Virus record (IMG/VR): IMGVR_UViG_3300026320_000006
Coordinates: 1 to 55,572 of that record
DNA length: 55,572 nucleotides
Strand: one strand, 5' to 3'
Source: a virus
In this document: piece after piece, positions 1,469 to 54,784 of the stretch
Layout of the letters: the number at the start of each line of letters is the position of its first letter
Numbering within the stretch: the stretch's first letter is position 1
Notes under the pieces: model-generated
The model's database searches: none
What the model was told of the DNA's origin: nothing
Seen by the model: the letters and a program-made list of their open reading frames with translations, nothing else
Translations under genes and position numbers: made by a program

Positions 1469-1672
1469 TTATTCTTCAATCATTTGCTCCCGATAGGCTG
1501 CATATTCATCAAGCGCATCTTGCTTGACACGATACGGGCCTGTATTGCCATTGGTCCGAAATGCCTTGAGCTTCCCCTGTCTGATTTTTCGTATGACGGT
1601 CATGCGATGCACTTGCAGTATTCGCGCTACATCACCAACGGTGTAAATGATTTCTTGCGGAGGTTGCTCCAT
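1469..1672 (-). CDS. Excisionase/HTH_17-type DNA-binding protein
   Basis: A 67-residue protein with the layout of the helix-turn-helix 17 (MerR-like, excisionase) family: YTVGDVARIL, then HRMTVIRKIRQGKLKAFR and a final KQDALDEY helix. The ATG at 1672 is chosen because a GGAGG site lies 12 bases upstream. A longer frame back to 1750 would start inside the promoter. It is the first gene of the leftward operon whose promoter is at 1735-1763, so it could be the regulator of the operator found there and again at 41478-41550, or a recombination directionality factor for the integrase. The sequence does not decide between these. Confidence 0.75.
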   Translation of the reverse strand: MEQPPQEIIYTVGDVARILQVHRMTVIRKIRQGKLKAFRTNGNTGPYRVKQDALDEYAAYREQMIEE

Positions 1673-1734
1673 AATACCTGTTCCTCCTTGTTGCATAATT
1701 GCTCCTTTCCAACCAATAAGTACTCCTGTGATGT

Positions 1735-1817
1735 AGTATAGCATTGTCATGAAAAGTTGTCAAATCATTTGGTATGTTCTCAAAAGTATTGACAAGTTTT
1801 GAAAAAAGGTCTATACT
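1735..1817. promoter_or_regulatory. Divergent sigma70 promoters with shared operator cassette (copy 1)
   Basis: Leftward promoter: -35 TTGACA (complement of 1758-1763), 17-bp spacer, -10 TATACT (complement of 1735-1740). Rightward promoter: TTGACA at 1789-1794, 17-bp spacer, TATACT at 1812-1817. Two related boxes, AAAAGTTGTCAAAT (1752-1765) and its inverted relative AAAACTTGTCAATA (on the minus strand, overlapping the other -35), cover both -35 elements. The same modules in reverse orientation occur at 41478-41550, which points to one repressor acting on both loci. Confidence 0.85.
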
Positions 1818-41372: not shown

Positions 41373-41477
41373 TGTTGAAATTCTCCTTTTCAAAACTAAA
41401 AACTGTAAATGTGGGCAATGGGCAACGATCCGCTTGGGGGAAGTGGTAAAAATCACTTGCCTATCGCCTCTTTCCGT

Positions 41478-41550
41478 AGTATACTCTCGCTTTCAAAACT
41501 TGTCAATACTTTTGAAAATATTTGACAACTTTTCATGACAATGCTATACT
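41478..41550. promoter_or_regulatory. Divergent sigma70 promoters with shared operator cassette (copy 2)
   Basis: Leftward promoter: TTGACA (complement of 41501-41506), 17-bp spacer, TATACT (complement of 41478-41483), driving the SSB/nuclease operon. Rightward: TTGACA 41522-41527, 17-bp spacer, TATACT 41545-41550, driving the SWIM protein and replication genes. The blocks TTCAAAACTTGTCAATACTT and TTTGACAACTTTTCATGACA are the reverse complements of the matching blocks at 1735-1806. Confidence 0.88.
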
Positions 41551-41590
41551 GAGAACACAATAATTGTTTGTTTGCTGGAGGAAGAAACAA

Positions 41591-41878
41591 ATGAATACAT
41601 TGCCACCATTCAGACGCTATGAAACCCTTGCGGGGGTTGAGTATGAAATGCTCAGCAGTAAAGGGAATTGCTACTATACCGTGCCTCTGGTGAGTGGCAA
41701 TGCGACGGGGTGTGAGTGCAAACATGCGGAATTTAACCCGTCCTGCAAGCACCAACGCGAAGCTGAACGGCTTGAAAAGGCTTACCAGCAAGAGAACAAA
41801 CCGCAACCGACAGCAGAGGAAGAAAAACGTGAGTATGCGCCTCTCAATGGGCATCGTGGGTTTTCACTCTATCGCTGA
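41591..41878 (+). CDS. SWIM-type zinc finger protein
   Basis: 95 residues from ATG 41591 (GGAGGAAG site). Contains GCECKHAEFNPSCKHQREAE, the CxCx(n)CxH pattern of SWIM zinc fingers, which bind DNA or proteins. The N-terminus is beta-like and the C-terminus charged. First gene of the rightward copy-2 operon. Another SWIM-like protein begins the operon at 49335, so the phage may use these as early regulators or recombination mediators. Confidence 0.7.
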   Translation: MNTLPPFRRYETLAGVEYEMLSSKGNCYYTVPLVSGNATGCECKHAEFNPSCKHQREAERLEKAYQQENKPQPTAEEEKREYAPLNGHRGFSLYR

Positions 41879-42662: not shown

Positions 42663-43115
42663 ATGACATCATTTACACCTCCACTGACCGTAACTCAACC
42701 ATTCTTTCGTGGCTCTATGCCGCTTCCACCGTCAGTCAATGATAGTTACGAACCACGTGGCAGACGCTCTGAGCATCAAGGCGGTATTGCAGCGACAGCA
42801 GAACTGGTACAGTTCAAAAAAGATGCGGCGCTCATGCTCTCTGACGTAAAGCAGAATCAGTACGACTGGGATATTATCAATAAGCTCAGAGAGTCCAACA
42901 ACAAACGCTGTCAGACACCGTTAGCAGCAACGATCAGGTTCTATTTTCCTACGGAATGGAAACGCGATGTAGACGGGCCGATTAAGGCCGCGCTCGATGC
43001 GGCGTTTGCGCGATTAGGGTTGGATGACCGGTTGGTTGTGAAGTTGGATGTACAAAAGCTGGTCGATCCGGTCGACCCGCACTGTGAAATCGAAGTGTGT
43101 TGTGTGGTCCGGTAG
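42663..43115 (+). CDS. RusA-like Holliday junction resolvase
   Basis: 150 residues. Shows the family pattern GSMPLPPSVNDSY at the start and WKRDVDGPIKAALDAAFARL with GLDDRLV, in which the Asp residues bind magnesium. RusA dimers cut four-way DNA junctions during phage replication and recombination. Contains a longer middle insert (about residues 50-80) than E. coli RusA (120 residues). Confidence 0.85.
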   Translation: MTSFTPPLTVTQPFFRGSMPLPPSVNDSYEPRGRRSEHQGGIAATAELVQFKKDAALMLSDVKQNQYDWDIINKLRESNNKRCQTPLAATIRFYFPTEWKRDVDGPIKAALDAAFARLGLDDRLVVKLDVQKLVDPVDPHCEIEVCCVVR

Positions 43116-45439: not shown

Positions 45440-45600
45440 TTGTCCCTGTTGTCCATAATTGCAGAGCTTATTTTCTGTTTTGTCCCTGTTGTCCATATGT
45501 ACAAATGTACATAATCATCTATTTCTTGCATGGATAAATGGACAAGATAGAAAACAGTAAAAAGTGATTCTGTCCATAGGGGCAAGATGGACAGATGTAC
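45440..45600. repeat. Second iteron-like cluster (TGTCC/TGTAC boxes)
   Basis: TTGTCCCTGTTGTCCATA occurs twice exactly, 40 bases apart (45440-45457 and 45480-45497), followed by ATGTACAAATGTACAT, ATGGACAAG, TGTCCATAGG and ATGGACAGATGTAC. The boxes match those of 4396-4766. The region is AT-rich and lies between the DUF3987-like gene and the TGT-like gene. Possible origin or initiator binding site. Confidence 0.6.
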
Positions 45601-45636
45601 AAAACCCCTTACAGGGGAGCCTATGGCACAGAGTTT

Positions 45637-46317
45637 ATGAGGATGATCGACTTGATTTATTGCGCAGGTGGGAATCCTAGATTATCTCAGATTGCAGATG
45701 AAGAGGGTTGGCTTATCGGTTTTCGGTCAGATTATGTCGCACCTACTCATCCGATTTGTTTTATTGATATCGATTATAAGCATCCTGATTTTATGGCGCA
45801 TCTGAGAACAGTTACAAAGCATAAGCCTAAATATGCGATTGTGCCTGATCTCTCAGACAAAATGATAGATCAACAGGATATTGACCGCGCCATAAAACAG
45901 GCTGAATTGCTGACTGGGTATTGCGAAATTCCCTTGATCGTTCCAAAGCTCTCGGGTCAGTTAGATTTAATACCAGAGCGTTTCGCCATTGGCTATTCAG
46001 TCCCAAGTCGCTACGGCGGCGCTGATTATCTCCTGTGGGAACTGGCAGGACGGCGAATCCATCTCTTAGGTGGAAGTCCTAAGAAGCAATTTCAAGCGTA
46101 TTTGCATCTCTCTGCTATCGCCGAAGTGATTAGCGCGGACGGCAATTATGCACAGCGGCAAGCCACAAAATTCGCTGAGTATTGGACTGGCAAGAAATGG
46201 GTAGAGCATCCTGATTATCAGGCAGAGGAAGCAGCAAGAAGAAAAGATTTATATTTTGAGTGCTGGAGATGGTCCTGTCAAAATATCATGAAAGGATGGA
46301 GAAAACTATGCCAGTGA
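45637..46317 (+). CDS. TGT-like TIM-barrel protein (DUF6610 type)
   Basis: 226 residues from ATG 45637 (an ATG at 45595 lacks support too). Features KHKPKYAIVPDLSDK, IPLIVPKLSGQLDLIP, IGYSVPSRYGG and RIHLLGGSPKKQFQAY recall the queuine tRNA-ribosyltransferase/DpdA barrel, whose last strands carry a similar G-x-G-x-P turn. DUF6610 proteins occur in many phages. If it acts like DpdA it would exchange guanine for a 7-deazaguanine in DNA, but no preQ0 synthesis genes are in this window, and a tRNA or other substrate is possible. Function open. Confidence 0.55.
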   Translation: MRMIDLIYCAGGNPRLSQIADEEGWLIGFRSDYVAPTHPICFIDIDYKHPDFMAHLRTVTKHKPKYAIVPDLSDKMIDQQDIDRAIKQAELLTGYCEIPLIVPKLSGQLDLIPERFAIGYSVPSRYGGADYLLWELAGRRIHLLGGSPKKQFQAYLHLSAIAEVISADGNYAQRQATKFAEYWTGKKWVEHPDYQAEEAARRKDLYFECWRWSCQNIMKGWRKLCQ

Positions 46318-49334: not shown

Positions 49335-49793
49335 ATGACACAAGTATCCACCAAAGCCGCCGAAGTCTACGAAGCCAAGATCGCCGCCGCCGTTTCCACC
49401 GTCAAAGAAATCCGCGCAGGCGTGTACAGCGTTCCATCTAGCCGCAAGAGCATACAGCCCCACATCGTTACAACCATCGATGGTTCTGCAAACTTCTGCA
49501 CATGCGAGTCTTTCCAATTCAACGGTTGGGAGCGTTATGGACACAAGTGTTACCATGCGCAAGCAACAGAGCGCTACATCGCTACTCAGCAAGCCGTCGC
49601 CGCGGCAGAGCAAATTCTTGCAGAAGAGATTTGCAACGACCAGGAGCAAGAGCTTGGAGAGCTTTCCCTCATTGCTGGCTACGTTGCTCAGGGCGTGAGC
49701 CGCTCAACAGCGGAAGCGATCGTCAGCGCGAAAGGCATCAAGAGCCATGGCAACGCGAAAGGCTATCAGCCCAAAGCGTTCTCACTTCTCTAA
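49335..49793 (+). CDS. SWIM-like zinc finger protein
   Basis: 152 residues (AAGGAG site). N-terminal helix, then VYSVPSSRKS and CTCESFQFNGWERYGHKCYH, the CxCx(n)CxH SWIM signature, then a helical C-terminus (ATQQAVAAAEQILAEEICND). Expressed from the operator-controlled rightward promoter, in a position like that of early lytic regulators. Its SWIM motif is shared with the 41591 protein. Confidence 0.7.
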   Translation: MTQVSTKAAEVYEAKIAAAVSTVKEIRAGVYSVPSSRKSIQPHIVTTIDGSANFCTCESFQFNGWERYGHKCYHAQATERYIATQQAVAAAEQILAEEICNDQEQELGELSLIAGYVAQGVSRSTAEAIVSAKGIKSHGNAKGYQPKAFSLL

Positions 49794-51481: not shown

Positions 51482-51682
51482 TCATGGGTGATGTACTTCT
51501 TTCCATAACTCATCGCACAACTGTGCCGCGCTATCAAGTTTGCACACACCTGCTTTGCTGTCAAAGTGGATATCACAAACCCACTCATGGCAGGTAGGGC
51601 ATTGATGTTTTGCCGGTTGCTCACAATAAATGTTTTCTTCCTGCTCACAATCGAAGTCAACTACGATGTAACAACTGTGCAA
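51482..51682 (-). CDS. Small zinc protein, paralog A
   Basis: 66 residues from TTG 51682 (AAAGGGTGAG site); GTG 51691 is the alternative. Carries QCPTCHEWVCDIHFD, a C-x2-C-x4-C-x2-H motif present in the same place in the two genes upstream (51728 and 52078). Probably one zinc ion. Last gene of the operon, so its job is likely tied to the helicase-methyltransferase protein. Confidence 0.6.
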   Translation of the reverse strand: MHSCYIVVDFDCEQEENIYCEQPAKHQCPTCHEWVCDIHFDSKAGVCKLDSAAQLCDELWKEVHHP

Positions 51683-51727
51683 GCTTCTCACCCTTTCATA
51701 CGAAAAAATTCAGAATGTTTTTACTCT

Positions 51728-52081: not shown

Positions 52082-52368
52082 TGGTTAAGCTCCAATCTGA
52101 ACTGATACACTTTTTCACGCTCGGCAGGGGTTAGATCTCCGCATGTTTCACAGATTGACCTGTTATTGAACTTTTCGCTGATTGCATCATGTAGTAAGCA
52201 GACCTGTTTGTCGCAAACGGCGCAAGAGAAGTCAGCTTTTTCTAAACACAATTTCCCTGTATGCTCTACAATCTGCTGGCAAGCAATATCATGATCTTCA
52301 TAAAACCATTCAACAGTAACCACGGCATAGCGTACCCCTGCTTTGATCTCTGTAAACGGTTGGCTCAT
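52078..52368 (-). CDS. Small zinc protein, paralog C
   Basis: 96 residues. ARYAVVTVEWFYEDHD-like N-terminal strand section, then SCAVCDKQVCLLHD (C-x2-C-x4-C-x2-H), SICETCGD and the closing helix EREKVYQFRLELNQ. The same order of elements as in paralog B shows tandem duplication followed by divergence. ATGA overlaps with both neighbours. Confidence 0.65.
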   Translation of the reverse strand: MSQPFTEIKAGVRYAVVTVEWFYEDHDIACQQIVEHTGKLCLEKADFSCAVCDKQVCLLHDAISEKFNNRSICETCGDLTPAEREKVYQFRLELNQ

Positions 52369-52580
52369 TGTGTTGCTCCCTCCGGATTCAATCGTGTTAC
52401 TGTACCGCTAAACTGGACTTTTGCAATTGCTCTGTTTCCAACTTGTTTGCGAGTGATAAAGTAACGAGGTGGATTTTCAAAATTTGGAACAATGTAATGC
52501 GTTTGATAAATTGAGCTTGCTCGTTGCTTTGCAATTTTAATAGCTTCGTCTACGGTATCAAAGTAACGCGCTTTGTTCAT
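52365..52580 (-). CDS. Small hypothetical protein
   Basis: 71 residues, mixed helix and strand (TVDEAIKIAKQRASSIYQTH, then PPRYFITRKQVGNRAIAKVQ). Translationally coupled to the helicase-methyltransferase gene by ATGA. Unrecognised; no Cys pairs, so it is not one of the zinc paralogs. Confidence 0.6.
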   Translation of the reverse strand: MNKARYFDTVDEAIKIAKQRASSIYQTHYIVPNFENPPRYFITRKQVGNRAIAKVQFSGTVTRLNPEGATQ

Positions 52581-54784
52581 GCCATCGCCTCCATTTCATC
52601 GAATAAGGTTGCTTGTGTCTTTTGTTGCACCATGCGCTCGAGGTTCTTACGAGCAACTTCGAAGTAAGATTGTTTGAGTTCTACCCCAACGAACTTACGC
52701 CCATGCCGTAGTGCTTCGTAACCCTCGCTACCAATGCCTGCAAAAGGAGAGAAGATTGTTTCTCCTGGATTGCTCCAGAGCTTGATACACCGTTCAATCG
52801 TACCGAGCTGCAAAGGGCACACATGCCGTTCATCGTCAGCATCACGCGCCTCAACCACGTTCAATGTGTCGGACTCCTTGATGCCATACCAGACGGGATG
52901 GGCCCACTCGATCCATTCATCGTTGGTCATGTCAGGATGAACAGGAACGGTGTTCTCTCCGGGCCTGCGAAATACCAGGATATAATCAGCGAGTCCGGGG
53001 CGCATCCACGAGGCGTCTTTGCGGAGCTGCGCAAACAGTAACCCTTTCGCGTGTGTGCGGATCGCCTGCGCCTGTGGGTTCTTATCGATGGTTACTTCCC
53101 CGTGATACACCCAGCCACGATCTACAAACGCCTGTATCGTTTCACCGCGAAAGTCTTTCAAACCAATAAAACCATCGTTGATCAAGGTCGCCGCTATTTG
53201 CTGGACATGCACACAGCAATTCCGGCCCGGTTTTGTCACCCGGAGCAGATGATCGATGATATATGAAAAGTGCCGATAGAATTCATCGCGTGTACGGCTA
53301 TTGCCCAAATCGCGCTCTGTTGGGCTATACACATACAGTTGCTGGAACGGCGGCGAAAAGATAGAAAGATCAACTGACTGATCAGGTATTTCTGCCATGC
53401 GTTCGCAACTATCACCCAACATCAGCGTGTAGTGGTCTGTTGTGATTGTTTGTGTCATATACTCCTGCTCCTGTTGTGACTTTTCAAGTTCCTCACGTTC
53501 AAATTTCTGAACATGCTCAATTAACTGCTTGCTCATCTGTTGCGCCTCTTGTTCTTTTCGCAGGACATTTTGATAGACTTCTTGTTCGATTTCTGAGAGG
53601 ATAATGCTCACCTGAACCGGCTGTGTTTGCCCAAAACGATAACAGCGTCGAATACACTGATAATAATCTTCGAAGCTGTCCGAGAGACCGATAAAGGCCA
53701 TGTTGTGACAGTGTTGAAAATTCATACCATACCCGGCGATTTTTGGCTTTGTCACCAAAACACGATACTTCCCTGTTTGAAATGCTTCGATTGCAGCAAT
53801 TTTTTGGTCTGGACTGTCAGACCCAATAATCTCAATGCTGTCTGAAATACTCCCTGCAAGGGAAGCGCTTTCGTCATTGCGGCCACACCAAAGGATCCAC
53901 TGTTCATCGTTTGAGGCGACCAGTTCAATAGCTTTCTGGACGCGTTCTGCTACCGTTCCCTTGCGCGCTTTTGAGCGATCTGTGATGCCTTTCAAGCCAG
54001 TAGCAAACAACTGATCTGCAGGTGTATAGCCTGTTTTGACAATCACCGGCTCAACCGACAATACAGGCAGAATATAGCCAGTATCGTCATAACCGATATC
54101 AGACGGCTTTTTGATGCTCATCGACCAGGATGCAAGCCAGCGATAAAATGCCTCGGTTGCATGGCCTTTCAATCGCCATCCGTTGCCAGCGCCACTATCC
54201 GAGTCATGTGTGAAAAAAGTTGCCAGCATATTTGGGCGCGTCATGACCCCTAAAAATTCTGCATGATTGGCGATCTCTGTGATATCGTTTGGAGCAGGTG
54301 TTGCCGTACAACACAACTTGAATGGAGTAGTACCAAACATCTCCATCAGTTTTGCTTTGATTTTTCCATCAAGCGATTTAAGTATTGATGATTCATCCAG
54401 GACGACAGTTCCAAAGTCAGATGGATCAAAATGATCAATCATCTCGTAGTTTGTGATATTGATACCGTCAATCAGATCAGAACCAGACCGCGTATAATGT
54501 GTCTGGATGCCAATTTTTTTCGCCTCATTCACCGTTTGGCGCGCAACTGACAAGGGCGCGATAATCAAACTTCGAACGTTTGAGAGGCGCGCAAACTCCA
54601 ACTGACAAAAAGTTTTTCCCAGCCCTGTATCAGCAAAAATAGCGGCGCGGCCTTTTTGAAGCGCCCACTGCACGATGACTTTTTGCCAATCGAACAACAT
54701 CGGATGTATCGCTGACAGGTCAACAGCACGGCCTGATGTTTGGGATTGCAACCGTTTGGATTGGAGGAATGTGTGATAGTCCAT
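52577..54784 (-). CDS. Fused SNF2-like helicase and beta-class DNA methyltransferase
   Basis: 735 residues from ATG 54784, two bases past the upstream helicase stop. N-terminal SF2/SNF2-type motor (about 20-450): Walker A FADTGLGKT, Walker B VLDESS (Ser for the usual Ala-His), TATPAPND and a late YRFGQTQPVQV motif VI. C-terminal methyltransferase (about 470-725): motif IV SPPFQQLY comes before motif I SPFAGIGSEG, the order of beta-class N4-cytosine/N6-adenine enzymes. A coiled coil links them. The protein may translocate on DNA and methylate. Together with the separate helicase it recalls modification arms of restriction or defence systems, but no nuclease is fused. Confidence 0.85.
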   Translation of the reverse strand: MDYHTFLQSKRLQSQTSGRAVDLSAIHPMLFDWQKVIVQWALQKGRAAIFADTGLGKTFCQLEFARLSNVRSLIIAPLSVARQTVNEAKKIGIQTHYTRSGSDLIDGINITNYEMIDHFDPSDFGTVVLDESSILKSLDGKIKAKLMEMFGTTPFKLCCTATPAPNDITEIANHAEFLGVMTRPNMLATFFTHDSDSGAGNGWRLKGHATEAFYRWLASWSMSIKKPSDIGYDDTGYILPVLSVEPVIVKTGYTPADQLFATGLKGITDRSKARKGTVAERVQKAIELVASNDEQWILWCGRNDESASLAGSISDSIEIIGSDSPDQKIAAIEAFQTGKYRVLVTKPKIAGYGMNFQHCHNMAFIGLSDSFEDYYQCIRRCYRFGQTQPVQVSIILSEIEQEVYQNVLRKEQEAQQMSKQLIEHVQKFEREELEKSQQEQEYMTQTITTDHYTLMLGDSCERMAEIPDQSVDLSIFSPPFQQLYVYSPTERDLGNSRTRDEFYRHFSYIIDHLLRVTKPGRNCCVHVQQIAATLINDGFIGLKDFRGETIQAFVDRGWVYHGEVTIDKNPQAQAIRTHAKGLLFAQLRKDASWMRPGLADYILVFRRPGENTVPVHPDMTNDEWIEWAHPVWYGIKESDTLNVVEARDADDERHVCPLQLGTIERCIKLWSNPGETIFSPFAGIGSEGYEALRHGRKFVGVELKQSYFEVARKNLERMVQQKTQATLFDEMEAMA

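Follow-up and report, generated by a model that had tools for sequence, protein, structure and literature searches.

A phage DNA-metabolism operon that probably joins a RadD-like helicase and an undescribed zinc-binding family to the known SNF2-methyltransferase pair

The single virus record IMGVR_UViG_3300026320_000006, whose 55,572 bp were analysed as a whole (the window), contains a striking operon of motor, methylase and small zinc-binding proteins, which appears to combine two phage gene sets that are independent of each other, and not to be a new defence system. It is probably a temperate tailed phage's operon for DNA metabolism, under operator control, in which two independently assorting sets would serve the processing of DNA branches by a helicase and the orphan methylation of the phage's own DNA. 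The sequences themselves show the order of the genes, the intact motifs, the divergent promoter in its two copies and the separate co-occurrence of the two sets in other phages.

The record is most likely circular, because the contig ends (1-578 and 54995-55572) overlap by 578 bp, with 94% identity and 32 mismatches, and the same helicase is encoded at both of them. In the overlapping part of the helicase gene 30 codons differ, 28 silently and 2 with a change of residue; the mismatches between the ends suggest that the assembler joined two variants from the population. Read over the join on the minus strand, the array comprises genes for an HTH protein, the RadD-like helicase, the SNF2-methyltransferase fusion, a 71-aa protein (p71), p96, p117 and p69 (Table 1). 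These genes are presumably co-transcribed because of their spacing: the helicase and fusion genes meet in a TAA-T-ATG junction with a 1-nt gap, three junctions (fusion/p71, p71/p96 and p96/p117) are of the ATGA type, and 36 nt separate p117 from p69. The earlier note on this DNA had thus listed real genes and a real fusion, but the extent of the helicase, the couplings, the place of the promoter and the first gene needed correction. Indeed, its stand-alone SF2 helicase is present, complete and RadD-like, but the gene is cut by the contig end, with the rest at the other end of the window; the proposed ATGA couplings exist at the three junctions named above, but not at helicase/fusion or p117/p69.

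Table 1. Positions in the window of the operon genes, of the two promoter copies and of two nuclease genes
Feature	Position	Strand	Remarks
Divergent sigma-70-type promoter pair, operator-like	1735..1817		37-nt imperfect inverted repeat
Inverted near-copy of the divergent promoter	41475..41580		upstream of RusA-primase operon (+) and exonuclease operon (-)
Excisionase-type HTH protein, first operon gene	1469..1750	-	93 aa by first start; TIGR01764 1.2e-10
RadD-like SF2 helicase, N-terminal 483 aa	2..1450	-	continues over contig ends
RadD-like helicase, C-terminal 261 aa	54786..55571	-	578-bp overlap with left-end copy
SNF2-type motor and beta-class amino-methyltransferase fusion, 735 aa	52577..54784	-	
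71-aa protein	52365..52580	-	ATGA overlap with fusion
Zinc-binding family protein p96, 96 aa	52078..52368	-	ATGA overlap with 71-aa gene
Zinc-binding family protein p117, 117 aa	51728..52081	-	ATGA overlap with p96
p69, short probable third paralog, 69 aa from GTG	51482..51691	-	internal TTG start possible
Cas4-type exonuclease	40214-39348		
RusA-like resolvase	42663-43115		

The SNF2-like motor fused to a beta-class methyltransferase, as claimed in the earlier note, was confirmed by several lines of comparison. The motor occupies residues 26-447 and the methyltransferase residues 448-733; PHROG_16 covers residues 26-733, i.e. both halves, and Pfam gives matches to Helicase_C (2.7e-8) and N6_N4_Mtase (2.3e-15). 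With a profile of the fusion, the nearest PDB sequences are S. solfataricus Rad54/SNF2 for the motor (1z63, 8e-20) and Thermus TTHA0409 for the methyltransferase (2zie, 6e-29), and the AlphaFold2 model (pLDDT 77.6, pTM 0.58) matches the CSB, Chd1 and Mot1 motors together with TTHA0409. The order of the methyltransferase motifs, IV then I, is that of the beta-class; the SPPF motif occurs in N4-cytosine methyltransferases and in some N6-adenine methyltransferases. In 33 relatives the motor motifs (Walker A GxGK[TS], DE, TAT and QxxxRxxRxxQ) are kept with few exceptions, as are the methyltransferase motifs FxG (FxGxGS) and SPPF, the latter off by one Pro in 3 of the 33; the active-site residues, on whose retention the earlier note had made its proposal depend, are therefore intact in the homologs.

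A SNF2-clade SF2 motor with intact ATPase motifs and an amino-methyltransferase, its motifs likewise intact, in the same protein correspond to a pair that is already described and common, so that the module cannot be called new as a unit, as had been proposed. A 2017 survey names it the methylase-helicase dyad (DNA methylase-helicase) and finds the coupling of SNF2 ATPases to methyltransferases widespread among phages, plasmids and conjugative elements (PMC5512222), and a 2025 paper reports for phage Pacc40 a single protein with both a helicase and a methylase domain (PMC11855218); a literature search returned no biochemical test of a phage pair. Relatives of the fusion were found in 372 of 50,697 phage records, and in 305 of them a single place accounts for 80% or more of the fusion; the pair is a single gene in some phage records ("DNA helicase/methylase") and two genes in others, plasmids also carry it, and the scan of genome contigs yielded one distant locus only. 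The phage dyad (PHROG_16; Mycobacterium phage Cerasum gp63, Ramsey gp65-gp66, Pacc40 gp60) shares domains and domain order with the fusion, reaches about 50% full-length identity to it and has similar replication and recombination surroundings, whereas a RadD-like helicase before the fusion and zinc-family genes behind it distinguish the window. In unrelated phages the neighbours of the pair are genes for an annealing protein, SSB, an exonuclease, a RecA-like protein, RdgC, a sliding clamp, DnaB or primase. The motor and methylase genes are separated by an endonuclease gene in L011 (8001-11013) and in snusmum (L033, 4959-8024); in the distant phages L005 (4902-5282) and L018 (6315-6698) a DUF1064 gene stands directly 5' of the SNF2 gene, and HNH genes take the same place upstream of the SNF2 gene in mycobacteriophages.

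The joined helicase has 552 aa and aligns unbroken to contiguous relatives. By its motor core only, it is a member of the RadD family: its best solved match is the PDB structure of RadD (6jde, 5.8e-31), over residues 2-351, and it matches the RadD model NF053632 with 1.7e-48 and 165 bits, under the cut-off of 720. Escherichia coli RadD (YejH), which shares this SF2 motor core, carries two zinc fingers, one of which is needed in vivo according to a Cys mutant (PMC9049331); in the window's helicase, unlike in RadD, no Cys cluster follows motif VI, and the last 200 aa or so form an unrelated C-terminal region. A C-x2-C...C-x2-C ribbon is kept in some phage RadD-like helicases (L017, L029, L033 and L039), not in that of the window.

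The small proteins behind the fusion define an undescribed family. The motif C-x2-C-x4-C-x2-H occurs three times in the six frames of the window, with 0.13 occurrences expected, and exactly in the ORFs of p96, p117 and p69. Paralogy is clear for p96 and p117 (BLASTP 2e-7; score reached by none of 1000 shuffles), whereas the similarity of p69 to p117 is weaker, with 3 of 1000 Cys/His-fixed shuffles reaching its score, and that of p69 to p96 is not significant; three paralogous proteins, as had been claimed, thus share the motif, with kinship certain for p96 and p117 and probable for p69. Common features are an N-terminal [PA]F-x-x-I, the C-x2-C-x4-C-x2-H motif, a C-x2-C and a C-terminal RLE[IL]N[RQ], which p69 shows in part. 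Searches of Pfam, PHROGs, NCBIfam, PADLOC, PDB sequences and phage records gave the family no significant match; collection searches with the single zinc proteins, with alignment A1 and with the 71-aa protein returned nothing, and the latter has no relatives in Pfam or PHROGs either. An AlphaFold2 model of p117 built from three sequences has a pLDDT of 48.5, too low to be used. Small proteins with SWIM-like Cys/His patterns were also noticed in the window (41564-41878 and 49335-49793), in L036 (14057-14380) and shortly upstream of the fusion in L005 (4417-4695) and L006 (6630-6872); in L005 and L006, the C-x2-C-x4-C-x-H proteins encoded ahead of the fusion resemble the zinc family without reaching significance (profile E 0.1-0.2).

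Two further phages encode the family, and p96 has homologs in both: in L036 one member lies between the helicase and the SNF2 gene (2e-9 to p117), while in L056 one member lies four genes downstream of the helicase (profile 4e-15). HTH homologs precede the helicase in both loci. L035 and L036 apparently represent one phage and were counted once, so that the zinc family is found in three phage lineages only, each time with a RadD-like helicase; the family, judged from these genomes, goes with this helicase, in a link that comes from few cases. Helicase, zinc protein and SNF2-methyltransferase are all present in the window and in L036. No zinc-family member turned up in the initial 22 viral loci with the fusion, whole records having been checked for 8 of them, or in the phages with a 63-72% identical fusion; a general absence of the family from relatives, true for those 22 loci, was overturned by L035/L036 and L056. 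Conversely, the fusion was not found in the 54,989-bp record of L056 (genome G011), possibly incomplete, which has helicase and zinc protein and whose integrase, HTH protein, membrane protein and primase also have counterparts in the window. Thus two separate gene sets would be joined in one operon, because L056 lacks the fusion and the close relatives of the fusion lack the zinc family; the larger unit of zinc proteins and fusion that the earlier note had proposed largely fails this co-occurrence comparison, L036 being the case with both. A 170-aa membrane-anchored protein is encoded at 51283-50771 of the window, with homologs in L006 and, in collinear position, L056.

As to the role of the zinc proteins, a general replacement for the lost RadD fingers was rejected, since most finger-less helicases have no zinc-family gene nearby (80 further loci, up to about 9 kb on each side); such a replacement is possible for this lineage only. 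It is conceivable, if rather unlikely, that the family is an accessory of phage RadD-like helicases, binding DNA or protein in trans, and that in two of the lineages it couples the helicase to the translocating methyltransferase at replication or recombination forks.

The operon promoter, TTGACA-17-TATACT at 1763-1735 on the minus strand, lies beyond the contig join and faces a plus-strand TTGACA-17-TATACT promoter at 1789-1817. The operator-controlled promoter of the earlier note is thus placed across the join, over an operator-like inverted repeat, and the HTH gene, which that note does not mention, is the first of the operon. The segment 1725-1830 recurs as an inverted near-copy, with two long identical blocks and an alignment score of 107, where none of 2922 random pieces exceeds 34, and this copy also has facing TTGACA-17-TATACT promoters. 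Its left neighbour is an operon of a 272-aa protein and the Cas4-type exonuclease, its right neighbour an operon with an m5C-type methyltransferase, the RusA-like resolvase and two primase genes; a DUF6610 protein (45595-46317, 2.5e-53) is encoded inside this primase operon. L036 and L056 share this promoter layout ahead of their HTH genes. Because the near-copy also serves the RusA-primase operon, the helicase-fusion and RusA-primase operons are suggested to form one DNA-metabolism regulon, and one repressor may act on both promoter sites. In the sister genome G001 (that of L036), a single run contains HTH, HNH, helicase, zinc protein, SNF2 and methyltransferase genes, the RusA-like position, ASCH and primases; together with the promoter copy, this run places the operon genes in DNA replication and recombination. 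The ends of G001 carry an exact 123-bp terminal repeat, and the genome, of about 64.0 kb, looks complete.

The probable regulon common with the primase and RusA genes, like the sliding clamp that adjoins the pair in Arthrobacter phages, would also suit a regulatory methylation by the fusion, which would time replication initiation or packaging instead of giving protection. This seems quite improbable: G011 is collinear with the window yet lacks the fusion, and for this reason the fusion would be dispensable in that phage.

The fusion also recalls DarB of phage P1, which combines a SNF2-type motor and an amino-methyltransferase in one protein; DarB is a virion protein with an LPD36 domain and its methyltransferase N-terminal to the motor (PMC5512222). 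The fusion, unlike DarB, has the reversed domain order, lacks LPD36, for which 735 aa are too short, is much smaller and is not known in the virion. A dedicated DarB-like anti-restriction, with helicase and zinc proteins acting as dedicated partners of a fusion that would methylate or protect phage DNA on its entry, would agree with the intact motor and methyltransferase and with the anti-restriction action proposed for SNF2-methyltransferase pairs (PMC5512222); it is nevertheless unlikely, as helicase and zinc family are found without the fusion and the common promoter links the fusion to replication genes. Of the modification or anti-restriction module suggested by the earlier note, modification or anti-restriction is retained as the most plausible use of the methyltransferase part (PMC5512222), but not as a new unit with the zinc proteins.

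A phage-borne defence or superinfection exclusion, in which motor, methylase, zinc proteins and an unrecognised domain would harm other phages, was likewise considered. The operon does share a motor plus methylase with type I/III restriction and DISARM, and neither the C-terminal domain of the helicase (about 200 aa) nor the zinc proteins have an assigned function; however, a nuclease domain, a specificity subunit and DrmA/B/C, which characterize those systems, were not found in it. The operon proteins give only partial motor or methyltransferase-domain matches in PADLOC and NCBIfam, all far under the NCBIfam cut-offs, and weak DrmD matches are all that recalls the DISARM set (15.5 bits against a cut-off of 950). 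No nuclease family was matched in the helicase or the fusion (Pfam, PHROGs, PADLOC, NCBIfam), but the last 200 aa of the helicase have no family assignment; the remark that no nuclease is visible applies to the operon only, as the genome does encode the RusA-like resolvase and the Cas4-type exonuclease. A restriction-modification remnant with one lost nuclease was also rejected, since the nucleases adjoining the pair in relatives belong to differing families (HNH, DUF1064, VRR-NUC), with no single partner. No defence model fits the whole operon, the context in relatives is replication and recombination, and the gene set is not kept together, so that defence is highly improbable; neither the superinfection exclusion suggested by the earlier note nor a new defence unit is supported.

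The preferred reading thus remains that of a DNA-metabolism operon of two sets. The first, formed by the HTH protein, the RadD-like SF2 helicase and the small zinc-binding family, would most likely have as its substrate the branched or recombining DNA of the replicating phage. The second would be the known phage pair of SNF2 translocase and amino-methyltransferase, fused here, the motor of which is predicted to move along double-stranded phage DNA carrying the methylase, which would mark newly made phage DNA; such orphan modification could shield the phage DNA from host restriction. What is gained is a family of small zinc-binding proteins, so far undescribed, that goes with RadD-like helicases of phages; should it act together with the helicase, it would offer a compact handle on the recruitment of RadD-type motors.
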